Source: a virus. Taken from it: a DNA stretch of 24,277 nucleotides. The notes beneath the pieces were generated by a model. The model was given only the letters and a program-made list of their open reading frames with translations, was not told the origin of the DNA and did no database searches. This document shows, one piece after another, positions 3,157 through 23,258 of this stretch. Made by a program: the position numbers and the translations under genes. The stretch is from positions 1 through 24,277 of the IMG/VR virus record IMGVR_UViG_3300044630_001968; one strand, 5' to 3'. The first letter of the stretch is position 1. Every line of letters starts with the position of its first letter.

Positions 3157-3290
3157 TGTGTGCTAATTGTGATACAAGTATTGTAAATGATGTTATGTTG
3201 GCATTGGATCCAATCTTTGAAGAGTTTGGTAAGCAAGAGGTTTTAGATATTATCCATGACTACTATCACAATCGTCATAGGGATGCCTAA
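3156..3290 (+). CDS. Small CxxC protein, 44 aa
   Basis: The frame runs from the ATG that overlaps the previous stop to a TAA overlapping the next ATG: TAATG at both ends. The product starts MCANCDTSIVNDVMLALDPI and ends NRHRDA. C2 and C5 form a CxxC near the N-terminus, and H34, H38 and H41 in the tail (IIHDYYHNRH) could complete a metal site. No family recognised. The double coupling argues strongly for translation. Confidence 0.7.
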   Translation: MCANCDTSIVNDVMLALDPIFEEFGKQEVLDIIHDYYHNRHRDA

Positions 3291-3808
3291 TGACTTGTAT
3301 TGTAGGTATTGCACATGAGGGTAAAGTAGTATTATCTTCTGATCGTGGTCTATCAGATGACGATCTAATTACTGCTATGTCTAACCCTAAGATTAAGCTA
3401 AATGATAGGTATCTAATTGGATACGCAGACTCTGTTGGTACTGGTCAGTTGCTTCATTGGATTACTTTGCCTACCCCACCCAGAAATAATCTGGAGAAGT
3501 TTATGCGTACTACCTTTGTAGGATCTGTACGAAAGCAACTAAATGATTCTGGTGTAGACCTAAAAGAAAATGCCCATGCTTCCTTTCTAATTGGAGTATC
3601 TGGGGAGTTGTTTTATGTGGATACCACAGACTGGCAAGTAACTAAGGTAGAGTATATGGCTATTGGATCAGGTGCTTCAATTGCTATGGGTTCTCTCTAC
3701 ACCACCCAAACCTGGAAGTCTGCAGAAAAGAGAGCATATACAGCAGTCTCTGCTGCTATCGAGCTCTCACCTTCTTGCATGGGTCCAGTAGACACATTAA
3801 GTATCTAG
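3290..3808 (+). CDS. Proteasome-beta / HslV-like Ntn hydrolase
   Basis: A 172-residue protein of the N-terminal-nucleophile hydrolase superfamily, proteasome beta/HslV branch. After removal of Met1 the new N-terminus would be Thr2 (TCIVGIAHEGKVVLSSD), the expected nucleophile. D18 matches the conserved Asp after the second strand, a Lys at NPKIK (about 33-36) matches the catalytic Lys, and GSGASIAMG near residue 127 matches the family glycine-rich turn. It is close to HslV in length (about 170-180). No HslU or other unfoldase is visible in the window. Related proteins occur in actinophages and may process a virion or host protein. Start fixed by TAATG coupling. Good family confidence; substrate unknown. 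Confidence 0.75.
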   Translation: MTCIVGIAHEGKVVLSSDRGLSDDDLITAMSNPKIKLNDRYLIGYADSVGTGQLLHWITLPTPPRNNLEKFMRTTFVGSVRKQLNDSGVDLKENAHASFLIGVSGELFYVDTTDWQVTKVEYMAIGSGASIAMGSLYTTQTWKSAEKRAYTAVSAAIELSPSCMGPVDTLSI

Positions 3809-3886: not shown

Positions 3887-5599
3887 ATGGTTAATATATT
3901 AGGACTACACTTTGGACACGATGGCTCAGCCTGTATTGTTAAAGATGGGAGGTTGGTCTCTGCAATTAGTACAGAGAGGCTAAATGGTATTAAGAAGTTT
4001 TATGGGGTTATTCCATCCACTATAGATTATGTTCTTAAAAAGGCTGGTCTTGGATACGAAGACATTGACGTGATTACTTTGGCTGATTATATTGGAAGTA
4101 ACTCTCATGACACCTTAAAGCTTTTTGATAAAAGTGGTACAAGAATAGAGCTCTGTTCTCAAAATGTTTTTGGTAATGAGATGATTGAGTTGGTCGGAGA
4201 GCTTAATGGTTTTAAAATTCCTGTAATTGCTTTACCTCATCATACCTGCCATGCTGCATCTGCTTTTTATACAAGCAATTTAGATGAGTCTGTAGTTTTA
4301 ACTATGGACGGCTGTGGAGGAGATTTAAGATCTAGCAGTTGGTTAGCTGTTGGAAAAGGAAATAAGTTAAATCATGTAGACTATCCAGGAATGAGAGTTG
4401 GTGAGCTTTACGGAGATTTTACAGTTTTACTTGGATTAGGACCTTCAGTGTACAAGGCTGGTAGCACAATGGGTCTTGCCTCTTATGGAAAGCCATCGGA
4501 AAGTGTTGTTTACAATAGTGATAAATGGATAGAAAAACTTTATGCTAAAAATTATCACTGGTCTGAGGCTGGACCTATATTTCATGCAATATGGGAAGAA
4601 GAACAAGTTGAAGTAAAGCATATACAATACGATACTGACAATGGAGCAACATATTATGAGCAATTAATGGAAACATGTGAGTGTAACCTTGAGCCACATG
4701 GAGGAAAGGGATCAAAAGATATATATCCATTTGAAACTAAATCTGGAATGACACAGGCTGCAAATATACAGTACCTATTTGAAAAACAAATTCTAGACAC
4801 AGTTGATAAAAATATTAGAGTTAATGAGCAAACTAAAAACGTAAATAATATATGTCTTGCTGGAGGATCTTTCTTAAACTGCAATGCAAACTCTGCCATA
4901 AAAGCAACTGGATATTTTGATAATGTACACCTATTTCCTGGTGCTGGAGATGATGGTATTTGTGTTGGGTCTGCACTTTACTATGCCCACCATGTCCTTG
5001 ACTACCCAAGAGAAACATATAGCTTTTCAGACTTAGCCTACATGGGAAGTGAAAGTGTTGAGTTAAAGGAAGAAGAATATGCCTACTTAGCAAATGAAAT
5101 TGCTAATGGTAAAATTATTGCTTGGGTATCTGGTGATTCTGAATATGGACCTAGAGCTCTTGGTCACAGAAGTATTTTAGCAGACCCACGAAACTTTCAT
5201 AACAGAGAAATCTTAAACTTTTTAGTTAAAAAGAGGGAATGGTTTAGACCATTTGCTCCAGTAGTACTTGAAGAAGAGGCACATAATTGGTTTGAACCTA
5301 GTGATCCTAGTAAGTATATGTTGTTTACACAAAGGGTACTACAGCCTGAAAAGATTCCTGCCGTAACGCATGTTGATAATACTGCTAGAATGCAGACTAT
5401 TAATGAGGAAGATAACAAGCCATATTACAAATTAATTCAGGAATTTTTTAAGATTACTGGAATACCAATGTTAATTAATACCAGCTACAATGCAAATGGA
5501 AAACCAATAGTTCATAGCAAGCAACAGGCTTTAAACGCATTTCATACAAATAGTGGAATAGATATTCTGGTGCTTGATGGAAAGATTATTGCTAAGTAG
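3887..5599 (+). CDS. Carbamoyltransferase, NodU/CmcH/TobZ family
   Basis: A full-length 570-residue O-carbamoyltransferase. These enzymes make carbamoyl-adenylate from carbamoyl phosphate and ATP and pass the carbamoyl group to a hydroxyl. The N-terminal Kae1-like part shows GLHFGHDGSA (residues 6-15), the metal-binding HHTCHAASAF (118-127) and DGCGGD (141-146). LAGGSFLNCNANSAI and the FPGAGDDG loop lie in the middle. The C-terminal YrdC-like part has YGPRALGHRSILADPR and RPFAPVV. Known acceptors in this family include sugars, cephems and, in some phages, 5-hydroxymethylcytosine in DNA. No hydroxymethylase is in this window, while sugar genes are, so a sugar or glycosylated acceptor is at least as likely. 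It converges end to end with the nuclease gene. Confidence 0.9.
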   Translation: MVNILGLHFGHDGSACIVKDGRLVSAISTERLNGIKKFYGVIPSTIDYVLKKAGLGYEDIDVITLADYIGSNSHDTLKLFDKSGTRIELCSQNVFGNEMIELVGELNGFKIPVIALPHHTCHAASAFYTSNLDESVVLTMDGCGGDLRSSSWLAVGKGNKLNHVDYPGMRVGELYGDFTVLLGLGPSVYKAGSTMGLASYGKPSESVVYNSDKWIEKLYAKNYHWSEAGPIFHAIWEEEQVEVKHIQYDTDNGATYYEQLMETCECNLEPHGGKGSKDIYPFETKSGMTQAANIQYLFEKQILDTVDKNIRVNEQTKNVNNICLAGGSFLNCNANSAIKATGYFDNVHLFPGAGDDGICVGSALYYAHHVLDYPRETYSFSDLAYMGSESVELKEEEYAYLANEIANGKIIAWVSGDSEYGPRALGHRSILADPRNFHNREILNFLVKKREWFRPFAPVVLEEEAHNWFEPSDPSKYMLFTQRVLQPEKIPAVTHVDNTARMQTINEEDNKPYYKLIQEFFKITGIPMLINTSYNANGKPIVHSKQQALNAFHTNSGIDILVLDGKIIAK

Positions 5600-9008: not shown

Positions 9009-9186
9009 CTTTTTCTCCTTCCCTAAATTTCATTGAAAATAACCACACAACTACGCATAGCATAATCGCCCACCCAACTACTGTCTTAGCAGACCCATCT
9101 AGGACTGCCCATGCTACGAACATACCAAGAAGGGTGAATGTCTGGTTCAATGTTTCACGGAACTTATCCTTTAACCATTTTTTCAT
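8995..9186 (-). CDS. Small two-helix membrane protein (second holin or antiholin)
   Basis: A 63-residue protein with a basic amphipathic N-terminus (MKKWLKDKFRETLNQ), two hydrophobic segments (about 15-29 and 36-51) and a charged C-terminus. Tandem small membrane proteins of this kind in phage lysis blocks are often holin/antiholin pairs. GGAGG lies eight bases before the ATG, which overlaps the stop of the upstream stalk-protein gene (TAATG). Confidence 0.65.
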   Translation of the reverse strand: MKKWLKDKFRETLNQTFTLLGMFVAWAVLDGSAKTVVGWAIMLCVVVWLFSMKFREGEKDGKE

Positions 9187-10721
9187 TATCTTATCCTCCC
9201 TGTTATTAAATTAGTTGATGCTATTACCTGTCCAACAATAATGGACGCAACAACCACGGTTTGTGATTCTTCACGTTGTTCTGGTGTCATGTCTGCACCA
9301 ATATTAGCCACAGCAGTAAGAGCCTTACCAGGATCTGTAAATACTGCAGCTAAAATTTCTGATGGATTCTCAAATATTTCCAAAGCATCTGCTACCTCTG
9401 CAAAAAGAACTACGCCATTGTCTAACATAACTGGCTGATCATCTGGCAAGTCTTCATAGTCAAGACCAAGCTCATCAATTAATTCAGTTGAGATTGCGTT
9501 ACCATCTGCTTGTTCTAAGATAACATCTACAAGCAATTCTTTTTCATCTTCCGTCAAAATTCCATCTTCAGTTAAAGAGTCTGAAAGACCAGATACTTCA
9601 TCTTCAGAGATAAATCCATCTCCCAAGAAGGTATTAATTAGTTGTTCTGTCTCAATGTCTGAGATAACACCACTTTCAGTAAAGGATTCAACAAATGTAT
9701 CTATTTCAGTATCAGTTATTTCTGTGATAACATTATTAGATGGAAGATCAATGGATGGAAGATCTAGATCAGGAAATGAACTCTCGATTGGATCTGGAGT
9801 TAATGGTTCTGGAAATGAAATCTCTGGCTCAGGATCTAGGGATGGAACTACAACAGGTCCTTCAGGCTGCCACGGATATTCTGAGGGACTTGAAAAGGAA
9901 GGGACTGGAATAGGTGAAGAAGTTTCTGAAGGCAGCACAACAGGTTCTGACGGTAGTGGGCTTGGCTCTATTGGCTGGGGTGACGGTTCTATTGTTGGCG
10001 TTGGTGATTCTGACGGCTGTGGCTCAGGGCTGGCAGTAGGTGTTGGCTCAGGTGTTGGCTCAGGTGTTGGCTCAGGTGTTGGGCTTGGAGTTTCACTAGG
10101 AACAACTGGAGGCTCTGTAAAGCTTGATGGTGTTGGTGATGGCTCAACCTCAATAGGAACCCCACCATTGACATCAAAGGCTGCTTCCATAGGAACAACA
10201 GCCTGACCTTCTTGATATCTAATTGCTCTTCTTGCATCTGCTGGAAGATCTGTCATTGTAACAATCTCACCATGCCATCCACCATTTGAAAACTTAGTAA
10301 CAACCAATCTCATTTGAGTTAAAGGTCCAGTAGACTGTGGAAATGGTCTAACAGACCACTCTATACAAAAGGAATTTTCATTATATCCATATGAAGTATA
10401 TGCACCTTCTCCAAAAGAAACCCAGTCTTTTCCAGCTATTGATATAGATGGTGTTTGTGGATAGTCCCAATAAGTTCCATCCGCTTTTCCAAATGTTACA
10501 GTTGCATTAGTACTATAAAAAATTTGATTATACTCTGTATTGCCTAAAGTTAAACTAAAAGGTAGGGTCATTGGAAAAGACCCATCATCATCTCCAGTAA
10601 TTGTAGACATATTGCAAACTAAAGGTGTAGCATGTGAAGATGTTGCTATAAAGAAAGAGCCCCCCACAAAAAGCAGGGAGCTAACTAAAATGTATGATAT
10701 AAACCTTTTCAACTCTCCCAA
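9186..10721 (-). CDS. Surface protein with Pro/Ser/Thr stalk and C-terminal anchor
   Basis: A 511-residue exported protein. Residues 1-31 are a signal peptide ending near SSHA. Residues 32-185 form a beta-sandwich-like domain with paired Cys 36 and 119. Residues 190-335 are a Pro/Ser/Thr/Glu-rich stalk (PTPEPTPEPTPEPT core). Residues 347-400 hold three 18-residue repeats with an EF-hand-like DGxISEDE core. A hydrophobic stretch at 488-504 could be a membrane anchor. The start is not ATG: a TTG at 10721 (alternative TTG at 10712) follows GGGAG, and a stop lies just upstream in frame. It is coupled to the small membrane protein gene. Such stalked proteins usually project from the cell wall; a host-cell surface or lysis role fits better than a tail part. 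Function unknown. Confidence 0.72.
   Translation of the reverse strand: MGELKRFISYILVSSLLFVGGSFFIATSSHATPLVCNMSTITGDDDGSFPMTLPFSLTLGNTEYNQIFYSTNATVTFGKADGTYWDYPQTPSISIAGKDWVSFGEGAYTSYGYNENSFCIEWSVRPFPQSTGPLTQMRLVVTKFSNGGWHGEIVTMTDLPADARRAIRYQEGQAVVPMEAAFDVNGGVPIEVEPSPTPSSFTEPPVVPSETPSPTPEPTPEPTPEPTPTASPEPQPSESPTPTIEPSPQPIEPSPLPSEPVVLPSETSSPIPVPSFSSPSEYPWQPEGPVVVPSLDPEPEISFPEPLTPDPIESSFPDLDLPSIDLPSNNVITEITDTEIDTFVESFTESGVISDIETEQLINTFLGDGFISEDEVSGLSDSLTEDGILTEDEKELLVDVILEQADGNAISTELIDELGLDYEDLPDDQPVMLDNGVVLFAEVADALEIFENPSEILAAVFTDPGKALTAVANIGADMTPEQREESQTVVVASIIVGQVIASTNLITGRIR
10039..10080 (-). repeat. 12-bp tandem repeat coding the Pro-Thr-Pro-Glu stalk
   Basis: Three exact 12-bp units (GGCTCAGGTGTT on the + strand) at 10045-10080, preceded by a half unit at 10039-10044. 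They encode the PTPE repeats of the stalk and could change copy number by slippage, altering stalk length. Confidence 0.75.
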
Positions 10722-10728
10722 GTCTCCC

Positions 10729-10761
10729 TGTTAGTCTAAGACTAACAAGTTTATTATATCA
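10729..10761 (-). promoter_or_regulatory. Extended -10 promoter with downstream dyad
   Basis: On the minus strand TGA-TATAAT (10753-10761) is an extended -10 box without a good -35. Just downstream, TGTTAGTC-TTA-GACTAACA (10729-10747) is a perfect eight-base dyad across the expected transcript start. It could be a repressor operator or a 5' mRNA hairpin ahead of the TTG start at 10721. Confidence 0.5.
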
Positions 10762-10769
10762 CGGTGGGA

Positions 10770-10901
10770 TTATTTAGATAGTTCTTTCCACATTGCCTGG
10801 GTATCTTCAATTTTTAATAAGGCTTCAAGCACTGTCATTTGCAACAGTTCTTCTTGGTCAAGACCAATTTTTTCAGCATATCGTAAAATCTTTTGTATCA
10901 T
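10770..10901 (-). CDS. Small helical hypothetical protein, 43 aa
   Basis: The frame begins MIQKILRYAEKIGLDQEELL and ends TQAMWKELSK, 43 residues. It looks helical with an amphipathic pattern and may dimerise. Its ATG overlaps the preceding TGA (ATGA), the same coupling seen along this operon, and its stop lies just before the promoter of the stalk-protein gene. It is the last gene of the leftward accessory operon. Function unknown. Confidence 0.7.
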   Translation of the reverse strand: MIQKILRYAEKIGLDQEELLQMTVLEALLKIEDTQAMWKELSK

Positions 10902-11146
10902 TTAAAGTTATCCTTATCATCTTCTAGTAGTCTTTCTTCTATGCCGTCTGGAACATCATGACCAGCATCTCTATGTTCTTTTATGTGCTTAATCATAGCT
11001 GGTGTACTTTTTGTGCGGAAAGATACTCCATTAGTTGAGTGAGCCATTACTGTTTTTGGGGCTAGCATGCATCCCATGCACTCTAAATGCCCTTGCATGT
11101 TCATAAATAAATATAGGTCTGAGTGAGAAAGTCTAGCATATGACAT
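10898..11146 (-). CDS. Small zinc-binding-type actinophage protein, 82 aa
   Basis: An 82-residue protein with a metal-ligand pattern: C23 and C26 (ECMGCML), then H54, H58 and H63 in a helix ending HIKEHRDAGHDVP. I recognise this CxxC...HxxxHxxAGHxVP layout from small proteins widespread in actinophages; their function is not known to me. A structural zinc site is the simplest explanation. The start is fixed by TAATG overlap with the methylglyoxal synthase gene. Confidence 0.75.
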   Translation of the reverse strand: MSYARLSHSDLYLFMNMQGHLECMGCMLAPKTVMAHSTNGVSFRTKSTPAMIKHIKEHRDAGHDVPDGIEERLLEDDKDNFK

Positions 11147-11541
11147 TATTTTTCACCTTTTCTTTTTTCAAATAACTGAGAAGATATCATCATGTCTGCG
11201 GTTGCTTTGTTTACTGCTACACCAGCGTTCCAAAGAGTTGCCAACCTTAACAATGCTTTTACGTCAGGGTCGTGTGGTTGTGCTTCCAGGGGATCCCAAA
11301 AGAAAATAAGAATATCAATTATACCTTCAGATATTGAAGCACCAATTTGTTGGTCTCCACCTAAAGGTCCACTTAAAAATTTTGTAATAGGCAATTGCAA
11401 TTCGTTTTGTAACAAGATTCCAGTATTGCCAGTAGCATACAGGTGATGCTTACTAAGAATAGAATGATTAATTTTGCACCATTCTAGTAAATCTTGTTTT
11501 TTATTATCGTGAGCAACAAGGGCAATGTGTCTAGTTTTCAT
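11146..11541 (-). CDS. mgsA: Methylglyoxal synthase
   Basis: A complete 131-residue methylglyoxal synthase. The enzyme converts dihydroxyacetone phosphate to methylglyoxal and phosphate, a bypass of lower glycolysis. Conserved blocks are [11 protein letters not shown] (5-15), LYATGNTG (34-41), [12 protein letters not shown] (57-68), [20 protein letters not shown] (80-99) and the [11 protein letters not shown] block (111-121). The residues matching the E. coli active site, H11, D12, D63, D83, H90 and D93, are all present, so the enzyme should be active. It is shorter at the C-terminus than the E. coli protein (152 aa) and lacks its extension. The gene is embedded in an operon of small phage genes, with single-base overlaps on both sides, so it is part of the phage genome and not a contaminating fragment. 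An accessory metabolic role during infection is inferred. Confidence 0.92.
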
Positions 11542-11783
11542 TAAATCAAATCTTCTGTTAGGTGGTTAAATTGTGGTAAAGGCTCTAGGTTATCAAATAT
11601 CCCCATTTGATTATGTGGCACAGCAAGACTATCTTCATCCTCATAGTCGTCCCATATCGCTGTGTACATGTCTGCATAATCATACAGGGGCTTTTCAACC
11701 TTATGTAACAGGTTTAACATTTTGTTAGCAAACCAACGAACTACTGGACCAGCATCCTTTTCATGATGTAGTTCAAATTCCAT
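11541..11783 (-). CDS. Small acidic hypothetical protein, 80 aa
   Basis: An 80-residue acidic protein beginning [20 protein letters not shown] with a tryptophan-containing helix and an acidic C-terminal half ([13 protein letters not shown]). The ATG follows a strong AGGAGG about eight bases upstream, which lies inside the end of the preceding small membrane-protein gene. The stop overlaps the methylglyoxal synthase start (TAATG), so the two are likely translated together; whether they interact is unknown. No family recognised. Confidence 0.72.
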
Positions 11784-11886
11784 TTCGTTTCCTCCTATCC
11801 CAAATATATCTTCTTACATTAACATAACAGTTTAATGCTACAAATGTAAGAATAAGAAATTCTGCTACTGAGTGCGTAAGCTTCAT
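11773..11886 (-). CDS. Tiny membrane peptide, 37 aa
   Basis: The ATG at 11886 forms an ATGA overlap with the upstream gene's stop and opens 37 codons: MKLTHSVAEFLILTFVALNC and a basic tail [14 protein letters not shown]. Residues 8-22 form a single transmembrane helix with strongly positive residues after it, so the tail should be cytoplasmic. It overlaps the next gene by 11 bases and supplies its ribosome binding site. Real by operon logic; function unknown. Confidence 0.6.
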   Translation of the reverse strand: MKLTHSVAEFLILTFVALNCYVNVRRYIWDRRKRNGI

Positions 11887-12071
11887 CTATTGTCCTTTGG
11901 TAATGCTTGAATAATAGAATAGAAACATTCAGCAAAGCTGGCTGCCTCTATAGCAAAATCTTCTATATGTGATTCTTTTGTTCCAATACGACCAGCGACA
12001 TAATGCTCTAAAGCATTAGTATAAATTTCCATTAAGTCTTCTGTTGATTTAATTAAATAACTCTTAGCCAT
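11883..12071 (-). CDS. Small helical hypothetical protein, 62 aa
   Basis: The product starts MAKSYLIKSTEDLMEIYTNA. The same frame is open further upstream to a TTG at 12101, but the ATG at 12071 has AGGAG seven bases before it and overlaps the previous TAA, so it is the better start. The protein is acidic and helical with no metal motif. It belongs to the leftward accessory operon. Function unknown. Confidence 0.72.
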   Translation of the reverse strand: MAKSYLIKSTEDLMEIYTNALEHYVAGRIGTKESHIEDFAIEAASFAECFYSIIQALPKDNR

Positions 12072-12481
12072 TAAAAATCTCCTGGGGCTACCTGTAAGCA
12101 AGTAAGACCAATTTCACGCCACATATCTACTACTTGTTGGCGATCATCAAGCACACATAAAATATCATAATCAGGTGCAATAAGTTGTTCGTAAATTTCT
12201 CGTTTAACAATTGAATCCTGTCTAAAGTCTCCATACTTACGCATGTAAAGCTTAATAAATGGTGGGCAGTTTAATGTTAACCACCTATATGTTTCATTAA
12301 AGCATGAATCATCACGACCTGAAACAAATATAATTTTATGTCCAGCTCGCCACAAAGCGTTTACAACTTCAATAACATTTTTGTCTGGAGTATCATGAAT
12401 AACTTTTGAGTAATCATATATCTCACGATTACTTCTGTGAGACACCGTTCCATCAATATCTACAATTACTGCACTACGCAT
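12071..12481 (-). CDS. HAD-family phosphatase, PNKP 3'-phosphatase-like
   Basis: A 136-residue HAD-superfamily hydrolase resembling the isolated phosphatase domain of T4-type polynucleotide kinase-phosphatase. Motif I is VDIDGT (D8 nucleophile, D10 acid/base), motif II is VSGRDD with S54, K93 is the conserved lysine, and motif IV is VLDDR (D112, D113). The C-terminal block DMWREIGLTCLQVAPGDF is typical. Such phage proteins remove 3'-phosphates from nucleic acid or act on nucleotides. No kinase domain is attached. It overlaps the flanking genes by one and eight bases in the accessory operon. Confidence 0.85.
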   Translation of the reverse strand: MRSAVIVDIDGTVSHRSNREIYDYSKVIHDTPDKNVIEVVNALWRAGHKIIFVSGRDDSCFNETYRWLTLNCPPFIKLYMRKYGDFRQDSIVKREIYEQLIAPDYDILCVLDDRQQVVDMWREIGLTCLQVAPGDF

Positions 12482-12773
12482 GTCTGTTCCAATTCTCTAA
12501 AAATGGATCTTCATATTCATATAAAATTACTGGAGTTAGTTCGCCCATCCAGGCACCTGCACAATTATATGAAATATATTCTTCTGCTTCCATTACATCC
12601 ATGCCATCACGCTCAACAAGTATCTGTAGCATCTTTATAAACGAGTATGTTGCTAGTGTTGGTTGACCACACCGTCTTGAAAAACCAATAAAGGCATCCT
12701 CAAATCCATCCATTAACAGCATCTCTTGATCTGTTTCATAATAGACTAAAGTTTCTAATTCTTTTTTGTTCAC
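12474..12773 (-). CDS. Conserved phage protein of unknown function, 99 aa
   Basis: A GTG start at 12773 is chosen because GGAGG lies six bases upstream and the G is shared with the preceding TAG (TAGTG). A possible ATG at 12779 has no space for a ribosome binding site. The 99-residue protein contains GFEDAFIGFSRRCGQP and a later AEEYISYNCAGAWMGELTP. I recognise this as a family common in diverse phages and small bacterial proteins, with no function known to me. Acidic, soluble, alpha-helical. Confidence 0.75.
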   Translation of the reverse strand: MNKKELETLVYYETDQEMLLMDGFEDAFIGFSRRCGQPTLATYSFIKMLQILVERDGMDVMEAEEYISYNCAGAWMGELTPVILYEYEDPFLENWNRHA

Positions 12774-12934
12774 TACCATCCTCCAAGACAGCTTTTTGAG
12801 TGTGTGTGTATCCAAAAGTTTCCTTCTAGATGTTTTTTTGTTGGTGCATAAAGTTCTGTGCCACAGGCACCACAATTATGCAACCATTCTTGTGCAAAAA
12901 AATCGTACTGAAATCCTTTTTCGTACTTAATCAT
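12773..12934 (-). CDS. Small zinc-finger-type protein, 53 aa
   Basis: A 53-codon frame starting MIKYEKGFQYDFFAQEWLHN. It has C21 and C24 (CGAC) followed by H43, H45 and C49, a plausible zinc site. It is the first gene after the TTGACA-18-TATTAT promoter, with AGGA seven bases before the ATG and a leader of about 20 bases. The stop shares a base with the GTG start of the next gene. Function unknown; DNA or protein binding is possible. Confidence 0.72.
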   Translation of the reverse strand: MIKYEKGFQYDFFAQEWLHNCGACGTELYAPTKKHLEGNFWIHTHSKSCLGGW

Positions 12935-12961
12935 TTAATATCCTTGGCTTTGTGTATATCT

Positions 12962-12991
12962 ATAATACACTATGTGGGGTGGGCTTGTCAA
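12962..12991 (-). promoter_or_regulatory. Promoter TTGACA-18-TATTAT of the accessory operon
   Basis: On the minus strand TTGACA (12986-12991) and TATTAT (12962-12967) are separated by 18 bases. The context AAACTTGACAAG is identical to that at the promoter near 7852. It should drive the operon containing the HAD phosphatase and methylglyoxal synthase genes. Confidence 0.72.
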
Positions 12992-12993
12992 GT

Positions 12994-13158
12994 TTATTCT
13001 TCATAGAGTTCGTAGGCAACAAAGTCTGTATTGTCCACAAACTCTTCATGAACTACTCCATCTACAAAGAACTTAATCTTAGAAAAATATGCTCCATAAG
13101 AAACAATTTCTCCAACAACTTCCTCTTCAAATAGCCATACTAGATTGCCCGATGTCAT
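12994..13158 (-). CDS. Small beta-rich hypothetical protein, 54 aa
   Basis: A 54-codon frame beginning MTSGNLVWLFEEEVVGEIVS and ending FVAYELYEE. It alternates hydrophobic and acidic residues, so it is probably a small beta-sheet protein such as an SH3-like barrel. The ATG overlaps the previous TGA (ATGA), and the stop lies three bases from the -35 box of the next promoter. Function unknown. Confidence 0.72.
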   Translation of the reverse strand: MTSGNLVWLFEEEVVGEIVSYGAYFSKIKFFVDGVVHEEFVDNTDFVAYELYEE

Positions 13159-13412
13159 TTTATACTCCTTGGTGGATCGCCCTTGGCTCCATCAAAGTAG
13201 CATTTTACACCAAAGGATTCTATTAGCTTTCTAACCATTTGTAAATATTCCATAAAAGTTTCCATCTGCGGAGCATTCATAGACATAATTTGATTTTCAT
13301 AAATACGAATAGAAATATACTGATCAAACTCTACAAAATCCACAACAAGTTTTGGGTATGGTGGCTTAATTTGATGAACTGCAACGGACATTTCTTTTGT
13401 AAATTTAGCCAT
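13155..13412 (-). CDS. Small conserved phage protein, 85 aa
   Basis: An 85-residue protein starting MAKFTKEMSVAVHQIKPPYP; an alternative ATG at 13424 would add four residues, and neither start has a strong ribosome binding site. A beta-rich N-terminal half (LVVDFVEFDQYISIRIYENQ) is followed by a helix (QMETFMEYLQMVRKLIESFG) and GVKCYFDGAKGDPP. I have seen proteins with this layout in actinophage genomes but know no function. Overlaps the WhiB gene by eight bases. Confidence 0.7.
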   Translation of the reverse strand: MAKFTKEMSVAVHQIKPPYPKLVVDFVEFDQYISIRIYENQIMSMNAPQMETFMEYLQMVRKLIESFGVKCYFDGAKGDPPRSIK

Positions 13413-13689
13413 CTGACACCGCATCTAAAATCATAGACCATACCTCTTTTGTTTTATGCATATTTTTAGAGGGACTTGGCTCTCCATCTACTAAGTATAC
13501 ACCACCCCAAACTCCCCATTCTGAGTTTGTTGTTCCGTGATTAAAACACTCTGCTATAACAGGACACTGCAAACAAATAGTTTCATCAACTGTTTTTGCA
13601 AGTATTGGATCTTCTTCATACTTATCAAAAAACATTTCACGGTCAATGGCACGACACTTAGCCTTCATCATCCATTCTTCATCTAACAT
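13405..13689 (-). CDS. WhiB-like iron-sulfur transcription factor
   Basis: From the ATG at 13689 the protein has 94 residues. The WhiB signature is complete: C12, C39, C42 and C48 (C-x26-C-x2-C-x5-C) for a 4Fe-4S cluster, and GVWGG at 59-63. WhiB-like proteins are restricted to actinobacteria and their phages and bind the main sigma factor to change promoter choice. A longer frame from 13755 overlaps the upstream gene and is less likely; the chosen start overlaps that gene by 11 bases. It may regulate phage or host promoters, or block a host WhiB, during infection. This is the best host indicator in the window. Confidence 0.9.
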   Translation of the reverse strand: MLDEEWMMKAKCRAIDREMFFDKYEEDPILAKTVDETICLQCPVIAECFNHGTTNSEWGVWGGVYLVDGEPSPSKNMHKTKEVWSMILDAVSDG

Positions 13690-13888
13690 ACTTTGCTGGC
13701 ACTTCCCAACCATTTTCATTTGGCTCGTAGGTTTTATAGAATCCCCATTTGCCATCCCTTAGCAAACCGCCCTTTGACATTTCTCCAAGAGAGTCTGCCT
13801 TCCAGTCTACAATAGTCCAGCCATCCCAGTAAAGACCCTTGTTTTTTTCTACTATAGCGTGTGCTTCTTCGTAACCAATTATTGGCAT
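13679..13888 (-). CDS. Small aromatic-rich hypothetical protein, 69 aa
   Basis: A 69-residue protein starting MPIIGYEEAHAIVEKNKGLY and rich in Trp, Tyr and Gly (WDGWTIVDWKAD, DGKWGFYKTYEPNENGW). It looks like a small beta-rich fold. AAGGAAA lies upstream of the ATG, which follows the preceding gene after nine bases. No family or metal motif recognised. Confidence 0.72.
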   Translation of the reverse strand: MPIIGYEEAHAIVEKNKGLYWDGWTIVDWKADSLGEMSKGGLLRDGKWGFYKTYEPNENGWEVPAKYVR

Positions 13889-13897
13889 TTATTTTCC

Positions 13898-14275
13898 TTA
13901 GTATCTGTAGAATGAGGCTGGAATTTTTAGTTGTTCAGCCTTACGGATAAGTGCATCATGATTCTTGTCAGGATCTGACTTTGAATTAAATGACACGATG
14001 TGGTCAATATTGTAGCTTTCTAAATTTTCTAAAACATCTTGGTACTTAGCACGAGCGAACTTAGTCCAGATTTTCTTTTGTTTAAACATATCCTCTGACC
14101 TATTAATAAACTCTGCCGTATATCCATTTATTCTTCTTGGTCCTGCGGTTAAGATCTTAATGTGTTTTTCTTGGTATCCGTTTTTGTGTAGGTTTTCTTC
14201 AATTGCAACTACAACTCCACGCATAAATGTTGGATAGTCTCCAAAATCTTTACTACCGTATACTAAAATTTTCAT
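13898..14275 (-). CDS. Possible SLOG/YspA-like nucleotide-binding protein
   Basis: A 125-residue protein starting MKILVYGSKDFGDYPTFMRG, which resembles the N-terminal GSRDF loop of YspA/DUF2493-type SLOG proteins. It continues with ILTAGPRRINGYTAEFI and a later DHIVSFN strand, a Rossmann-like order. SLOG domains bind nucleotide-derived ligands or cleave N-glycosidic bonds. The second half is less typical, so the assignment is tentative. AGGA lies five bases before the ATG. Confidence 0.45.
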   Translation of the reverse strand: MKILVYGSKDFGDYPTFMRGVVVAIEENLHKNGYQEKHIKILTAGPRRINGYTAEFINRSEDMFKQKKIWTKFARAKYQDVLENLESYNIDHIVSFNSKSDPDKNHDALIRKAEQLKIPASFYRY

Positions 14276-14282
14276 AGCATTC

Positions 14283-15185
14283 CTAATTAACTAGATCAAC
14301 AATAAACATTTTTCCTGAACGCTTGTGTTCAAGGTATCTTGACTGGGACTTAATTCTATCATATACTTGAGACATTGACAACCCAGGGCTTAGTTCTTTT
14401 ACTGCTACCCATTTTGCTGCCATAAGTGCACTGGAGTTTGATGTTCCAACAGAGTTTGCTGTTTTATTATTTGGTGCTGCTGCAAACATTGTTCCTAATG
14501 CAAAAAAGTCAGTGCTGGCTGAGTTGTTGCTATATAGTGCTGGAGACATTTGCTTTCCATATGCTGGGTCTGTGGCACCAACAGAAATTGATGATGCAAT
14601 ACATGCAGGAAAGTCTATCTTAGAATAATTATATCCATTTCCTGTTGGGAAAAATGATGGAATATTCTTTGATGCAAGAGAGTTGATTGCATTTTCAATA
14701 GGCACATGCTTTGTGCAAGCATCTCTTGAAACATATGACTGACTCATATTTACCGCAACAATGTTATAAGTTTGGTGATTCTTGTCTACCCACTCTAGTG
14801 CTCTTTGCACAGCAGTCAGTGACGTACTTGCCCTAAGTCCATTTGCCGTCATTGGAATAATTCTAATAATAACAAGATTAACATTTGGATTGTTTTGAGT
14901 AATTACTGAAGCAATTTGTGTACCGTGATAAAAACCATTTCTACTAGCTCTTGCTGGATCTAAAGTTGCTGCTCCAACACCTTCCATAAAATTAGTTTTA
15001 TTTGGACAAGTGTTAAAGTCAAGTACACATACTTCGTGTACAATTTTTCCAGATACTGAACTATGCGTAGCGTCAATTCCTGTATCAATTACGGCAATGG
15101 TGGGCTTGGTGTTACCCTTTGCTGAAGTTCCTGTAATAACCAAAAGCAATGCTATTCCAATAATAGCAATAATACTTTTCTTCAT
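14283..15185 (-). CDS. Secreted subtilisin-like serine protease (S8)
   Basis: A 300-residue exported subtilase. Residues 1-22 are a signal peptide. The catalytic triad is visible: D34 in AVIDTGID, H87 in FYHGTQIASVI and S249 in VGTSNSSALMAAK; N183 in PTGNGYN is the oxyanion residue. There is almost no propeptide between the signal and the catalytic domain, unlike classical subtilisins. Four cysteines (53, 60, 157, 195) may make disulfides. Its own TTGACA-17-TATAAT promoter and AAAAGGA ribosome binding site give independent, probably strong expression. It could process virion or cell-surface proteins outside the cell, or remove receptors. Confidence 0.9.
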   Translation of the reverse strand: MKKSIIAIIGIALLLVITGTSAKGNTKPTIAVIDTGIDATHSSVSGKIVHEVCVLDFNTCPNKTNFMEGVGAATLDPARASRNGFYHGTQIASVITQNNPNVNLVIIRIIPMTANGLRASTSLTAVQRALEWVDKNHQTYNIVAVNMSQSYVSRDACTKHVPIENAINSLASKNIPSFFPTGNGYNYSKIDFPACIASSISVGATDPAYGKQMSPALYSNNSASTDFFALGTMFAAAPNNKTANSVGTSNSSALMAAKWVAVKELSPGLSMSQVYDRIKSQSRYLEHKRSGKMFIVDLVN

Positions 15186-15214
15186 TTTATTTCCTTTTGT
15201 TAGTTGGGATTTAT

Positions 15215-15243
15215 ATTATATCAATTTAATTGTTAGTTGTCAA
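15215..15243 (-). promoter_or_regulatory. Consensus promoter TTGACA-17-TATAAT of the subtilase gene
   Basis: On the minus strand TTGACA (15238-15243) overlaps the last codons of the dehydratase gene. TATAAT (15215-15220), preceded by TGA, follows at the ideal 17-base spacing. It is the closest match to consensus in the window and gives a leader of about 20 bases with a good ribosome binding site. Confidence 0.85.
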
Positions 15244-16243
15244 GCCATTGAGGGTTATTGTATGTCCATTTTACAACCTTGTCAATTGACTCTTCAATTG
15301 CCATTGGGTGTGTCCATCCAGACTTAGCAAGATTTTCTCCACTTAATGCGTAGTGCATGTCGTGTCCTGGTCTTTCTGTATTTGGATCCACCAAATCATA
15401 GTTTAATTGCTTACCTGCTGCGTCTGCAACAAGCTGGGCAAGTTCTAGATTGCTTAATCTTTTTTCTCCAGCAATATGCATTCTTAATGGCAAATCTGCT
15501 TCTCCATACTTTGGAAAGTCCTGCTCTAAGATATGCATTAGTCCTGAGGCTAAGCTTCTTGCATGTAAATAATATCTGCTTCCAATGTCACCCTTATTAA
15601 AATGAACAACAACTTTTTCATTCTTGTAAATCTTTTTCATGATCATAGCCATATACTTTTCAGAGTCTTGAGTTTCTCCAATGATGTTCATGCTATTTAC
15701 AATTCCGACTGGAACTCCATAGGTTCTCCAATAGGAAAGGGCTATGTCTTCCTGGGCAGCTTTAGATGCTGCATACGGATTACTTGGAAGGTGCAGGTCT
15801 TTCCATTCCTTGTTTGTTCTGTGCTTTGATCCTGGACCATATACCTCGTCAGTAGATATGTGCAAAAACTTTTCTACCCCCGTGTGTCTTGCCCAATCAA
15901 GCATGTTACACATCAATGATACGTTGTTCATGATAAATGGAGCTGGGTTTTCAATGCTACGATTGACATGGCTTTCACTTGCACAATTAATTACATAGTC
16001 AATCTTACCAAAATCAGCATAGGTTACTGGGGACATTGGCTGTGCTAGGTCTATACCAACAAGCTTTACTCTTCTCATTGCATCTGGGGAGGAGCTAAAT
16101 AAATATCCAAGCCTATCTTGAATACCACGATGTTTATAACTTACTGGCAAGACAATGCTATTGCAATCTGTAGTTTTTAATATGTGCCTAACAACATGGA
16201 CCCCCATTAGTCCACTAGCACCAGTAACCATTATTCTTTTCAT
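15233..16243 (-). CDS. RmlB-like NDP-sugar 4,6-dehydratase
   Basis: A 336-residue extended short-chain dehydrogenase/reductase. The NAD-binding motif is TGASGLMG (7-14). The active-site block is STDEVYG (130-136) with the Asp-Glu pair of dTDP-glucose 4,6-dehydratases, and the catalytic pair is Y157 and K161 (YAASK). ASESHVNRS (88-96) is also typical. RmlB-type enzymes convert dTDP-glucose to the 4-keto-6-deoxy intermediate from which deoxysugars are made; other NDP-sugars are possible. The ATG overlaps the glycosyltransferase stop by four bases with GGAG upstream. Its position beside two glycosyltransferase genes supports a phage glycan pathway. No other Rml genes are in the window, so later steps would come from the host or elsewhere. 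Confidence 0.88.
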   Translation of the reverse strand: MKRIMVTGASGLMGVHVVRHILKTTDCNSIVLPVSYKHRGIQDRLGYLFSSSPDAMRRVKLVGIDLAQPMSPVTYADFGKIDYVINCASESHVNRSIENPAPFIMNNVSLMCNMLDWARHTGVEKFLHISTDEVYGPGSKHRTNKEWKDLHLPSNPYAASKAAQEDIALSYWRTYGVPVGIVNSMNIIGETQDSEKYMAMIMKKIYKNEKVVVHFNKGDIGSRYYLHARSLASGLMHILEQDFPKYGEADLPLRMHIAGEKRLSNLELAQLVADAAGKQLNYDLVDPNTERPGHDMHYALSGENLAKSGWTHPMAIEESIDKVVKWTYNNPQWLDN

Positions 16244-17196
16244 TGCATATCTCCAATAATTTTATCTAATTCCATCCACTGCCGTATACAATTATCTCTT
16301 GAAAATCTATTGTTAATGTATTCTATTTGTGGTTTTGGATCAAACTTATTTTTTCTAATTTCTTTTATTGCTTTTTTTATTTCTTTTGTAAAAATTTTTA
16401 CCATTTCTTTTTCACGTTTTTCTATATCTTGAAAAGTTACTGGATAATTTTTAATAATTTTTGCAAACCCATTAGTTGTTTCTGGTAATGCACCAGCATC
16501 AGTAGTAACTACTTTTACCCCAGCACTCATAGCTTCCATAACTCCAATACATGCAGTTTCTTCAAATGTGCAGGGATAAGCATAAATATGAGATTTTTGT
16601 AAAGTATCTAAAAGAACTTCTTTTGTACTATCTCCATTTTTAATAATTCTTTCATCTTGATCAAAAATTACTTTAGCCTCATAACTTATTTCTGATGGGG
16701 TCATGCAGTCTTCGCATTCGCAGCAATGAATGGTAAGAGTAACATCTTTGTCTTTTATTTTATTAAAACATTTTAGTAAAATGTCCAGACCTCTTGATGC
16801 CTGAGATATATACATAAGGTTTATTTTGTCTTTTGGCTTTTCTTTAAACTCAATGGGATCAAACTGATTATTTACAATATAAAATCTATCCTCGTCTATA
16901 GCAAAATTTTCTGATAAGTTTTTTTTATGGAACTCCGATTGAACTAAAAACATGCTGGTTATTGATAAAAAATCTGGGTGTACAAAAAACTTTTCTAAGC
17001 TCCATGGCATTCTATAAGCTGGAACGTGGCACCAAACTATATTTTTTGTGTATTCTTTCATATTACCCTCAAGACCAGGAAGAACAATTAAATTACAATC
17101 TTTTAAAAAATTTGTTTTTGATAAAACATTTTCATTTACAAAGCTAGCCATGTTTCCTGTACCTCTGTTTCCAAATCCAGCAAATTTTCCTATCAT
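16240..17196 (-). CDS. GT4-type glycosyltransferase (GT-B fold)
   Basis: The start at 17196 (MIGKFAGFGNRGTGN) forms ATGA with the upstream stop and gives 318 residues. The nucleotide-sugar-binding C-terminal half has SRGLD at 134-138, the EX7E motif at E213-E221 (FEETACIGVMEAMSAG) and TTDAGALPE, all typical of GT4 enzymes. The acceptor-binding N-terminal half is shorter than usual. An unusual cysteine cluster CCECEDC lies at 158-164. The product probably transfers a sugar to a growing glycan in the cytoplasm, possibly the one made with the neighbouring dehydratase. Coupled to its neighbours at both ends. Confidence 0.87.
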   Translation of the reverse strand: MIGKFAGFGNRGTGNMASFVNENVLSKTNFLKDCNLIVLPGLEGNMKEYTKNIVWCHVPAYRMPWSLEKFFVHPDFLSITSMFLVQSEFHKKNLSENFAIDEDRFYIVNNQFDPIEFKEKPKDKINLMYISQASRGLDILLKCFNKIKDKDVTLTIHCCECEDCMTPSEISYEAKVIFDQDERIIKNGDSTKEVLLDTLQKSHIYAYPCTFEETACIGVMEAMSAGVKVVTTDAGALPETTNGFAKIIKNYPVTFQDIEKREKEMVKIFTKEIKKAIKEIRKNKFDPKPQIEYINNRFSRDNCIRQWMELDKIIGDMQ

Positions 17197-17456
17197 TTTT
17201 TTTCCTTCATGGCTTCTGAGTGTATTCCCCACTTACCTATTGGACAAGAAGCGTCAGCTAGTTTTGTTTTTTGAGGCATAATACATGCACACTTGCTACA
17301 CTGGGTAGTTACTTTAATATAAAATGGGCATTCTTTGCATATAGCCATTCTTCTTTCTTGTGCTTTATCAGAGACTCTTTCTTTGTTTGGATTAAAAAGG
17401 TCCCAAGGTCTTACTGGTTTTAGAGGTGGAACTTCTAAAAATTCATCATCATTCAT
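17193..17456 (-). CDS. Small six-cysteine zinc-type phage protein, 87 aa
   Basis: An 87-residue protein with C40, C43, C53, C56, C58 and C71 in the block MAICKECPFYIKVTTQCSKC followed by ACIMPQK and ASCPIGKW. I recognise this layout from small proteins in tailed phages, often beside glycosyltransferase or methyltransferase genes; the function is not established. A zinc-binding fold is most likely. The N-terminal 20 residues are Pro-rich. AGGA precedes the ATG. Confidence 0.75.
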   Translation of the reverse strand: MNDDEFLEVPPLKPVRPWDLFNPNKERVSDKAQERRMAICKECPFYIKVTTQCSKCACIMPQKTKLADASCPIGKWGIHSEAMKEKK

Positions 17457-17465
17457 AATAACTTC

Positions 17466-18404
17466 CTAATAATATTGTTCTGGAATATATTCGTTGTCCT
17501 TGTAAAGACCTACAGACAGATTTATTTTAGCATAATTTTCATATTTTCTAACATAATCTTTGTTTGAAATTAATTTAATATATCTATTTTGAGAAATGTT
17601 GTGAAGAGCTATGTTATTTTTTTCAGATAAATATTGAGTAAAATATTTTCTTTCTCCACCAAATTCATTCTTAAAATCTGTATAAAAATGAGTAAGAGGT
17701 AGTTCCATGTTTGGATAAACCATGTAAAAACCGTTGTTTATTAAATTAATTCCCTGAATAATTTCTTCATCATAAAAGAACGCTTCGCTGTATGTTCCTG
17801 GATTTTTTGCAAATTCTTTATCACTAAAAGCAAAATTTCCATTAAACTTTACACACGGATAAAACTTTTTAGGATACAAAGGATCTCCAAACAAAGGCTT
17901 ATCAGTCCATTTAGCATAAAAATTATTAAAAAATCCAGTAATATAAAATGGGTATCTTGAACGGGAATCTAATATCTTTAATCCATCTGAATCATACTTA
18001 TAAACTCCAAGATATGCAGTTAAAACAATTTTGTCATGGTTTAATTCTGATTTTGCTTCCTTAAATAAATCAATTAAAATTTCATCCCAATCTTGTTCAA
18101 AGTTTGTATGAGAGTCACATTGCAAAATGTAGTCTTGTCCAGAATATAAAGAGATTGCTTGCTGTCTTGCAAATCCAGTTCCATATTTTGAAAGATCTTT
18201 ATTATCAAGCTTGTTGTAAACCATCTTTACATTTTTCCCTTTAAAAGACTTAGAAAGCTTTTTATATAAAGACTTAGAATCTGAAGTGCAGGGCATTCCA
18301 ACAAAAATTCTTTCGGGGTACTTTGCTTTTTCAAAAAGACCTAATATAGATCTTTCAGTTTCTGTGTCATCCATCGTTGCCGTTGAAACATAAATTGTTT
18401 CCAT
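17466..18404 (-). CDS. GT60-like GlcNAc-transferase-family glycosyltransferase
   Basis: A 312-residue GT-A glycosyltransferase. The order YVSTATMDDTETERSILGLF (5-24), RIFVGMPC, then GFARQQAISLYSGQDYILQC with D97-S98-H99 in place of DXD matches the bacterial and protist GlcNAc-transferase family related to the Skp1 hydroxyproline GlcNAc-transferase (Pfam GlcNAc family). WD at 106-107 and a later NGNFAF block also fit. Known eukaryotic members glycosylate protein Ser, Thr or hydroxyproline, so a protein acceptor such as a tail adhesin is a reasonable guess. It overlaps the methyltransferase-fold gene by one base (TAATG). Confidence 0.8.
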   Translation of the reverse strand: METIYVSTATMDDTETERSILGLFEKAKYPERIFVGMPCTSDSKSLYKKLSKSFKGKNVKMVYNKLDNKDLSKYGTGFARQQAISLYSGQDYILQCDSHTNFEQDWDEILIDLFKEAKSELNHDKIVLTAYLGVYKYDSDGLKILDSRSRYPFYITGFFNNFYAKWTDKPLFGDPLYPKKFYPCVKFNGNFAFSDKEFAKNPGTYSEAFFYDEEIIQGINLINNGFYMVYPNMELPLTHFYTDFKNEFGGERKYFTQYLSEKNNIALHNISQNRYIKLISNKDYVRKYENYAKINLSVGLYKDNEYIPEQYY

Positions 18405-19156
18405 TATTTTTTATCCTTTTCAAGTTCCTGTTTTATAAAATCAAATCTTATTTTTGCTAACTCTGTTTGATCTTCTGAAACATCTATGCTTATGGCTTTT
18501 CTATTTAAAAGGTAGGCTTCACAAGCAGTTGTTCCGCTACCGCCAAATGGATCTAAGACAATATCTTTTGGCTTAGAAAACATTTCAATAAGTTTTTTTG
18601 GAATTTCTGATCTAAAAGAATTTTCAACAAAACCAAGGGGTTCTAATTTTTTTGTAATTTTATTAGAATTATCTTTTGCTGGGATGTTCCAAATGGCTTC
18701 AGAATACTTTCTTACAGAGTATGGGTTGCTATACATAAGTCCTGGGCTTTTTATAAAATGATATATTAAATGATAATTAAAGTTTACTATACCAAGATTA
18801 TTTTCTTTTACATTTTCTGACCAATTCCATATAAACGGTGGATTTGCTAAAAACAAATTCGTTTTTTTTAAAACACTTGAAACGTATTCTGAGTATAACG
18901 GCTCTGTATTAGAAATGCAAACAAAAATAGATCCTGTTGGCTTTAAAACTCGTTCCATTTCTTTTGTTGCAGATAGCAAAGAGCTAATATATTTTTTTGT
19001 ATTTTTTTCAGAACCTATTTGTTTGGTTGGATCTCCACCGTAGTAATCAAAATCTAATTGATAAAAGGGGGCTTGAGTAACAATTAGATCTACAGAATTA
19101 TTTTCTAAATTAATTTTTTTAGAATCTGATGTAATAAAATTTACAGTGCTGTTCAT
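18404..19156 (-). CDS. DNA methyltransferase-fold protein (N4/N6, beta class), atypical motif IV
   Basis: A 250-residue protein with the order of beta-class amino-methyltransferases: motif IV first, motif I near the C-terminus. Motif I is LDPFGGSGTT (201-210) followed by SIDVSED, as expected for AdoMet binding. Where DLIVTSPPY is expected the protein has DLIVTQAPFY (23-32), so the catalytic tetrapeptide is QAPF instead of D/N/S-P-P-Y/F. LKPTGSIFVCI (71-81) fits the following strand. It may be inactive, or act on a different atom or substrate. No restriction enzyme is nearby. The start overlaps the next gene's stop (TAATG). Confidence 0.8.
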   Translation of the reverse strand: MNSTVNFITSDSKKINLENNSVDLIVTQAPFYQLDFDYYGGDPTKQIGSEKNTKKYISSLLSATKEMERVLKPTGSIFVCISNTEPLYSEYVSSVLKKTNLFLANPPFIWNWSENVKENNLGIVNFNYHLIYHFIKSPGLMYSNPYSVRKYSEAIWNIPAKDNSNKITKKLEPLGFVENSFRSEIPKKLIEMFSKPKDIVLDPFGGSGTTACEAYLLNRKAISIDVSEDQTELAKIRFDFIKQELEKDKK

Positions 19157-19815
19157 TATCTAAATTCCTTTTTGGTCCACCAGTTTCTTTTGTATTGACC
19201 AAATGGAGGATTAAAAATTTTATAAAAATCTTTTGGTTCAACATAGTCTTCATTGTCAATAACTTTACTTTCCCATTTATCTCTTTTAAATGGAATAACC
19301 TGAATAATTGGAGTTCCTGCTGGAATTACCCCCTCAAATTCTTTTTTAATTAAGAATGGAAAATTTACTGTAACTGGGTGTTTGTCTGTATCAACAATTC
19401 CAGAAAAAGAATAAAATGGAGAATCTCCCGAATTTAAAGGATGAACGAATAGGCAGCTATATCCTTTTGGTGTTTTAATGTTCCAAGGATTTACCCACTT
19501 ATAGGGCTGTGAATCAAATTCTTCTGGGGCTGGATAGGCTTCCGTTTGTAAAGGATAGTGCTCTGAAACAAAAGTAATGTCATTTCTTTGACCAAATTTT
19601 TTTACCTCCCTTGCTTTGTAAACATCTGAAGGTAAGGTTATAATATAACCTGCAGTTAAAGAATCTAATATGGGGACACATTTTTTCATTGTGTGCATTT
19701 GTTCTTTTACAACAGAATCTTTTCTCCACCAATTTGGAACAGCCTTACTTGCTGGAACTGGATGTGGTATATCAAATTGTGGAAAGACGCTGGTAAATGT
19801 AATCTTATTTGTCAT
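19156..19815 (-). CDS. Duplicated-module protein A, 219 aa
   Basis: A 219-residue protein homologous to the product of 20251-20940. Shared features are IPHPVPASKAVPNWW near the N-terminus, CVPILDSLTAGYIITLPSDV, KTPKGYSCLFVHPLN with an invariant His, SGIVDTD, and GVIPAGTPIIQVIPFKRDKW. The pattern suggests a beta-sandwich or cupin-like fold, but no catalytic site can be named. I recognise related proteins in phage genomes without a function. AAAGGA precedes the ATG. With the gene at 19817 it forms one copy of a duplicated pair. Confidence 0.7.
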   Translation of the reverse strand: MTNKITFTSVFPQFDIPHPVPASKAVPNWWRKDSVVKEQMHTMKKCVPILDSLTAGYIITLPSDVYKAREVKKFGQRNDITFVSEHYPLQTEAYPAPEEFDSQPYKWVNPWNIKTPKGYSCLFVHPLNSGDSPFYSFSGIVDTDKHPVTVNFPFLIKKEFEGVIPAGTPIIQVIPFKRDKWESKVIDNEDYVEPKDFYKIFNPPFGQYKRNWWTKKEFR

Positions 19816-19816
19816 T

Positions 19817-20940: not shown

Positions 20941-20955
20941 TATTATATAATCTTT

Positions 20956-21216: not shown

Positions 21217-21227
21217 AATTTTATCCT

Positions 21228-22565: not shown

Positions 22566-22568
22566 AGT

Positions 22569-23246: not shown

Positions 23247-23258
23247 GTTTTCCTCCTA

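Follow-up and report, generated by a model that had tools for sequence, protein, structure and literature searches.

Methylglyoxal synthase (MgsA) is a homohexameric enzyme that is allosterically inhibited by phosphate, and D91, D101 and D20 (E. coli numbering) have catalytic roles in it. In the accessible text of PMC7843640, D71 is described as the base, H19 and H98 as its helpers, and K23, S65 and T45-G49 as the phosphate-binding set. The phage protein considered here shares with E. coli MgsA (PDB 1b93, 1egh) the predicted fold, the catalytic residues, K23, S65, G66-P67 and four of the five phosphate-loop residues, but differs from it in being phage-encoded, in the absence of a C-terminal tail and in having Asn in place of T47. 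The short MgsA proteins of Thermus (PDB 1wo8, 2x8w, 2xw6) resemble it in length (126-134 aa) and fold (Z 19.4-20.3); however, they are only 38-43% identical to it, and its nearest kin in the tree are tailed proteins of Actinomycetota.

Viral versions of the gene were known before. The Lake Baikal virome lists mgsA as a viral metabolic gene on a 120-kb scaffold of the virotype Caulobacter phage Cr30, which accounts for up to 8.8% of the reads in one sample (PMC8066274), and a study of a deep-sea brine pool lists it by gene name alone, under methane metabolism (PMC11252502). The identity of the latter is less sure, given that the word "methylglyoxal" is absent from the text of that source as available. 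Both are annotation lists that, in the accessible portions of these sources, come without residue, selection, phylogeny or insertion-site analysis, and the virotype of the Baikal scaffold is a phage other than the actinophages described below. Among the matches listed in the open-access literature, we found no study on the function of a phage mgsA. The novelty of the present case lies in the lineage, its constraint, the altered phosphate loop and the insertion site. The freshwater actinophages of Nanopelagicales share with the phages studied here a WhiB gene, glycosyltransferases and a dsDNA phage nature, but the isolates, as described in the available part of PMC10202952, have 39-kb genomes, whereas the near carriers of mgsA reach 71 kb, are of the linear class and are often fragments; the main text of that source has no mention of methylglyoxal.

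The gene lies in a 24,277-nucleotide stretch of an IMG/VR virus record (IMGVR_UViG_3300044630_001968); the whole stretch is termed the window. The original prediction, made from the letters of this stretch, had placed an intact methylglyoxal synthase gene at 11146-11541, overlapping by one base with the small phage genes on both sides, and these coordinates and overlaps are exact (Table 1). The gene is read on the minus strand, from 11541 to 11146, the plus-strand reading being interrupted by stops. Both overlaps are TAATG stop/start junctions; at the 5' junction the stop codon of the upstream gene gives its last A to the ATG of mgsA, and a Shine-Dalgarno-like motif within the last mgsA codons presumably serves the downstream gene.

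Table 1. The mgsA gene, its junctions and the neighbouring genes in the window
Feature	Coordinates	Strand	Basis
mgsA, methylglyoxal synthase, 131 aa, without C-terminal tail	11146..11541	(-)	TIGR00160 and NF003559 over cut-off
TAATG stop/start junction, mgsA 5' end	11539..11543	(-)	Sequence
TAATG stop/start junction, mgsA 3' end	11144..11148	(-)	Sequence
Shine-Dalgarno-like AAGGTG within last mgsA codons (...KRKGEK)	11154..11159	(-)	Sequence, without chance control
g3, upstream neighbour, 80 aa, no family	11541..11783	(-)	No match in Pfam, PHROGs or NCBIfam
Downstream neighbour, 82 aa, no family	10898..11146	(-)	No match in Pfam, PHROGs or NCBIfam
g5, small gene in the mgsA block	11883..12101	(-)	Neighbourhood clustering
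Polynucleotide kinase-phosphatase-type HAD phosphatase	12071..12481	(-)	PF25109 E 8e-52, phrog_505
g2, phrog_13182, near mgsA at sites A and B	12474..12875	(-)	PHROGs match
WhiB-like transcription factor, actinophage marker	13405..13755	(-)	PF02467, phrog_472

Several other genes of the window deserve mention in their own right. A 511-aa protein encoded at 9186-10721 has no match in Pfam, PHROGs or NCBIfam at E 0.001 and belongs to a cluster (cluster 11) represented in several records of the family. The segments 3887-5599 and 15233-19156 encode a NodU-like carbamoyltransferase, a nucleotide-sugar epimerase, two glycosyltransferases and a DNA methyltransferase, which possibly form a glycan or DNA modification set. 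Two peptidases occur in this one phage, namely a subtilase-family (S8) version at 14283-15185 and an HslV-like version at 3290-3808.

The 131-aa product scores well above cut-off in each of NCBI's two MgsA equivalog models, with 200.8 bits for NF003559 (cut-off 84) and 184.1 bits for TIGR00160 (cut-off 146.9); it also matches the Pfam MGS domain (PF02142) and 11 distinct MgsA sequences of solved structure (best E 1.4e-47), all of which bears out the predicted family assignment. PHROGs had no match for it at E 0.001. An AlphaFold model was built from 40 aligned sequences, the five models ranging in mean pLDDT from 72.5 to 90.2; the best of these (90.2) is weakest in residues 51-60 (mean 79) and from residue 121 onwards (means 75 and 56). 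When this predicted model was compared with known structures (999 chains aligned), the top 12 rows were all MgsA (Z 19.4-21.3), led by the E. coli enzyme (1egh; Z 21.3, rmsd 1.9, 129 aligned residues, 56% identity), which is the comparison that the original prediction had proposed as a check. The next rows were carbamoyl phosphate synthetases, with Z 13.4 and 14% identity. The protein was also rejected as a regulatory MGS-like domain of the kind found in carbamoyl phosphate synthetase or PurH, as it is free-standing at 131 aa and its Z is 13.4 against carbamoyl phosphate synthetase versus 21.3 against MgsA.

Residues were compared across the 14 near phage copies introduced below, five more distant copies from the viral collection and 80 bacterial copies (the best 80 of at least 565 loci). 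The six active-site residues named at the outset for the window protein, H11, D12, D63, D83, H90 and D93, are present and equivalent to E. coli H19, D20, D71, D91, H98 and D101. All six are found in the 12 complete near copies, and the two incomplete copies retain those that are still encoded. More generally, H19, D20, K23, S65, G66, D71, D91, H98, D101 and R107 are kept in every row that reaches the respective position. Within the phosphate-binding set K23, S65, T45, G46, T48 and G49 are likewise kept, but T47 of the TGTTG loop is replaced by Asn39 in the window protein. This position is Asn in all 14 near phage copies, as against Thr in 79 and Ala in one of the best 80 of at least 565 bacterial loci; in 10 further bacterial copies it is Thr (7) or Ser (3), and in the identical distant viral copies L016 and L017 it is Glu. 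The phage protein further ends at about E. coli residue 139, before the C-terminal tail: the 12 complete near copies are all 131 aa long, versus at least 144 aa in 76 of the 80 bacterial relatives (start codons assigned by rule). The short Thermus enzymes imply that the loss of the tail need not abolish activity. Asn at the T47 position may still bind phosphate, and this replacement leaves room for altered kinetics; as a guess, it might, together with the missing tail, tune the phosphate sensitivity of the enzyme. The tail might also have been traded for a compact junction, by which the gene could be gained or lost with the adjacent genes left intact.

When 2.9 million viral contigs were scanned for close relatives of mgsA, 18 loci were recovered; a broader, alignment-based scan brought in three more contigs (L207, L209 and L220). 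Thirteen of the 18 loci (L002-L013 and L019) encode proteins 92-100% identical to that of the window, so that the near copies comprise the window and 13 other viral contigs, 14 in all, in three genomic places. These carriers are partly redundant: the window and G001 share an 11.9-kb overlap at 99.98%, and the records L004, L006 and L007, whose mgsA genes are identical, align to the window in the same way. At 71 kb, G012 is the largest of the near carriers; it encodes a DNA polymerase, a DnaB-like helicase, a primase, a UvsX-like recombinase and a terminase. The four family scans of chosen proteins from G012, G005, the distant contigs and the window covered 10 proteins per scan. The occurrence of mgsA among phage genes on 14 contigs in three places, with precise empty sites in relatives, establishes that the gene belongs to the phage, as had been proposed from its overlaps, and the 13 further near copies are the result of the database search for mgsA amid phage genes that had been suggested along with that proposal. 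In these phages mgsA is an accessory gene. It was found in three of the 50 terminase-related records searched, and in one of the eight of those longer than 70 kb, proportions that are distinct from prevalence: the 50 leave out the known carriers L009 and L019, although both are among the listed terminase loci, and the carriers G001 and G005, with terminases 77% and 72% identical to that of the query, are absent from that list. The 50 were mainly longer records, taken from the 80 loci listed of 171 terminase relatives. As a separate observation, G005 encodes another enzyme of purine metabolism, of the IMP dehydrogenase/GMP reductase type (L109:13483-14511; PF00478, E 3e-96), and clustering (cluster 34) also places this gene in L004, L007, L010 and L011.

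The three places of insertion are distinct. Site A lies between g3 and g25, downstream of the terminase region (L005, L008, L009, L011, L012 and L013/G012, with L019 being cut after g3 in the same context); site B, with g3 upstream, is flanked by the WhiB block and the gene of the 511-aa protein (the window, G001 and L003); and site C is upstream of an HslV-like peptidase gene (L004, L006/G005, L007 and L010). Thus g3 adjoins mgsA at sites A and B, and relatives keep g3 without mgsA next to it. At site A the distance between the g3 end and the g25 start, as judged from protein matches, is 398 in L005, L008, L011 and L013, 608 in L009, which has an extra small gene after mgsA, and 338 in L012, whose mgsA is damaged. 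In ten records (G005, L122-L127, L139, L142 and L143, several of which are near copies) the site is empty and the distance is 3 or 6, giving totals of six occupied records, one of them damaged, and ten empty ones. Eight of the ten empty junctions were read letter by letter and have a single TAATG, versus a TAATG at both ends of mgsA when occupied; therefore, the insertion amounts to 395 bp. These phages have many such stop/start overlaps of one base (16 in G012, 13 in G001, 18 in G005 and 10 in the window, among ORFs defined by a simple rule, with the window and G001 overlapping), and 52 of the 57 are TAATG. Since G005 has an empty site A and carries mgsA at site C, the gene must have moved, or have been lost and gained. 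A toxin-antitoxin or other obligate partnership of mgsA with the 80-aa g3 product was considered and rejected, as g3 is joined straight to the next gene in ten records and mgsA occurs without g3 at site C. In the damaged copy (L012:4917-5264; 115 aa) the 3' end is deleted, apparently together with the beginning of the following gene; this mgsA is seemingly in decay.

The near copies are under strong constraint at the protein level. Pooled over 36 pairs of nine distinct coding sequences, mgsA has a pS of 0.61 versus a pN of 0.032. In seven pairs of records its dN is 0.031, 0.020, 0.028, 0.003, 0.042, 0.059 and 0.055, against 0.182, 0.196, 0.205, 0.194, 0.405, 0.396 and 0.421 for the terminase in the same order; since dS is infinite or exceeds 2 in several cases, the argument is drawn from these contrasts in pN and dN instead of from exact ratios. 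The truncated copy of L012 and that at the contig end of L019 were left out of these pairs, and identical coding sequences were counted once. The dN of mgsA is the lowest of the eight shared genes, with WhiB and five others being faster in every comparable pair, and it lies 6-10 times below that of the terminase in six pairs near synonymous saturation. In these six the dS of mgsA is at least 1.74 or saturated, so that the low dN reflects constraint, not recency. In the remaining pair, G012-L008, the dS is 0.36 for mgsA versus 1.23 for the terminase, which indicates a recent exchange of mgsA between phages. This lowest non-synonymous divergence of the eight genes argues for a working enzyme.

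In a tree of the phage rows and the best 80 of at least 565 bacterial loci (L019, at a contig end, left out), the 13 phage rows form a single clade (support 100/100) within a set that holds 19 rows of Actinomycetota (100/99). The nearest rows are Jiangellaceae with support 92/72, the exact sister being uncertain and the bootstrap not settled. This supports a cellular origin of the phage gene, which was probably captured from an actinobacterium. WhiB is regarded as a key indicator of actinophages in the available text of PMC10202952, and the position of the clade inside Actinomycetota MgsA, together with the WhiB gene in the window, makes an actinobacterial host likely. Among the 10 further bacterial copies, which are absent from the tree, one from a 1.6-Mb genome (locus GC 48%) is 71% identical to the phage protein and has the WNAG motif in common with it, but retains T47 and the tail. 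Among the 393 sampled genomes of the class to which Phytoactinopolyspora belongs (completeness not given), an mgsA match occurs over the cut-off in 28 and at E 0.001 in 29; hosts may thus often be without the activity, and the host of these phages may or may not have an MgsA enzyme of its own.

Taken together, phage ownership, MgsA orthology, the predicted fold, the catalytic residues, the constraint and the single-gene presence or absence lead to the reading of a competent enzyme. Against it stand the Asn in all 14 near copies, the missing tail, the accessory status and the decay of the L012 copy. Going by its sequence, the protein is very likely an active enzyme that converts dihydroxyacetone phosphate (DHAP) to methylglyoxal plus phosphate. 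The fuller proposal, namely a phage-owned, catalytically competent MgsA captured from an actinobacterium whose benefit is metabolic diversion, has in our estimate about an even chance of being right. According to this proposal, mgsA would be translated within the run of small overlapping phage genes, and the enzyme would convert host DHAP during infection to methylglyoxal and inorganic phosphate. The phosphate held in triose phosphate would thereby be freed for nucleotide synthesis, and carbon flow through lower glycolysis would be reduced, and with it host growth. The presence of mgsA suggests that these phages, which probably infect actinobacteria, redirect the sugar metabolism of the host. 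For the most part, auxiliary metabolic genes are known through annotation; here a captured enzyme of central metabolism is the most constrained of eight genes and forms an exact one-gene insertion that is present or absent in relatives. With a product that is toxic and also a source of phosphate, it offers a testable case of a reactive metabolite, or of phosphate release from triose phosphate, controlling infection, and the naturally occurring occupied and empty relatives would lend themselves to such a comparison.

The neighbourhood of mgsA has no gene recognised as belonging to phosphate starvation or glycolysis. PhoH was found in none of 13 actinophage records (mostly fragments) and in one of six other mgsA records, and neither the glyoxalase family PF00903 (none of 18) nor DJ-1 (PF01965; none of 19) was found in the mgsA-bearing records, which may be fragments; in these searches the window locus was represented by its near copy G001, which covers window positions 9599-24277. 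Hence, nothing found ties mgsA to phosphate starvation or detoxification, and within the families searched (PF00903, DJ-1 and PhoH) the gene stands alone, with no phosphate or detoxification module in view. As to the benefit, we favor metabolic diversion that releases phosphate, with methylglyoxal poisoning as its chief rival; the data fit either. The rival, which is possible but on the unlikely side, holds that the active enzyme is kept for methylglyoxal itself, a diffusible electrophile that would glycate host protein and guanine, stall host growth or replication, or exclude competing phages. The lack of a detected detoxifier near the producer fits with it, although fragments cannot prove absence and the search covered two families only, and the host may provide detoxification. 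That most sampled genomes of the host-like class are without mgsA (a match over the cut-off occurs in 28 of 393) and that a stand-alone gene capture suits a self-acting product are also in its favor, but phage DNA and proteins would be damaged as well.

A bolder version of the competent-enzyme reading, which we consider unlikely, is that tail loss and the change of T47 to Asn represent an escape from phosphate inhibition and that the gene is a promoterless, TAATG-to-TAATG, one-gene takeover cassette spreading between phages. If true, the re-tuned enzyme would run in phosphate-replete cells, flooding the infected host with a reactive electrophile, and the cassette, where present, would be held more tightly than the terminase.

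Still more doubtful, with a small chance in our judgement, is that only the fold was kept and the protein is a regulator sensing phosphate or triose phosphate, or acts on another phosphorylated substrate. MGS-like domains of carbamoyl phosphate synthetase are regulatory and have the same fold (Z 13.4), and the phosphate-loop change shared by all 14 near phage copies would be compatible with such a shift. However, the six active-site residues are kept in the slowest-evolving of eight genes, the equivalog scores are well over the cut-offs, and the protein is free-standing, unfused to a synthetase. The ligand-binding regulator, put forward as the alternative in the original prediction, therefore appears disfavored by the intact catalytic residues and the strong purifying selection. 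The last alternative, that bacterial contamination or an assembly chimera placed a host mgsA on a viral contig, could explain other database entries (four INPHARED matches, and L015 with its prophage integrase), but for the present gene it is vanishingly improbable and the chimera named at the outset as a possible refutation is excluded, since separate contigs have precisely bounded sites with and without the gene (14 contigs, three places, stop/start overlaps, a clade of their own with 100/100 support, and a 71-kb carrier with DNA polymerase, primase, helicase and terminase).

In the INPHARED collection 22 of 50,697 phage records match mgsA. Four of these that were inspected (MT835682, OR846776, MT835478 and MT835555) look like bacterial chromosome by eye, without annotation, and were not counted; we take the neighbours of mgsA to be MinD/MinE-like and RodA-like genes in two of them, and a transporter and other chromosomal-type genes in the other two. 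The mgsA of L015/L210 was likewise set aside as a host gene, because of its position at a prophage contig edge next to an ORF that by eye resembles an integrase, and because it clusters with Bacillota rows in the tree. The integrase-like ORF is situated just past the 3' end of this Bacillota-type mgsA (L015/L210:1-1964), and there is possibly an attachment site near the gene.

Among the more distant carriers, L207 encodes a baseplate hub and a clamp loader, L209 an SbcC-like nuclease and a virion protein, and L206 a topoisomerase II and a terminase. The L206 copy (as L016/L017), the only one of these three in the tree, falls outside the actinobacterial clade, which suggests that mgsA was captured by phages more than once. 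The terminase family PF03237 was found in one of six more distant mgsA contigs; a search with PF03420 gave no match, controls included. The phage nature of L204 (250 kb), L208 and L220 is unproven, and the proteins scanned against PHROGs, one from L208 and two from L220, had no match. Downstream of mgsA, L220 encodes (L220:6433-8967) a deoxyribonucleotidase (NT5C), a nucleoside deoxyribosyltransferase-like protein and Ham1, a protein of nucleotide sanitation. In L204 the gene after mgsA encodes a NADAR-domain protein (L204:6475-6903); NADAR enzymes act on ADP-ribosylated guanine, and guanine is also attacked by methylglyoxal.
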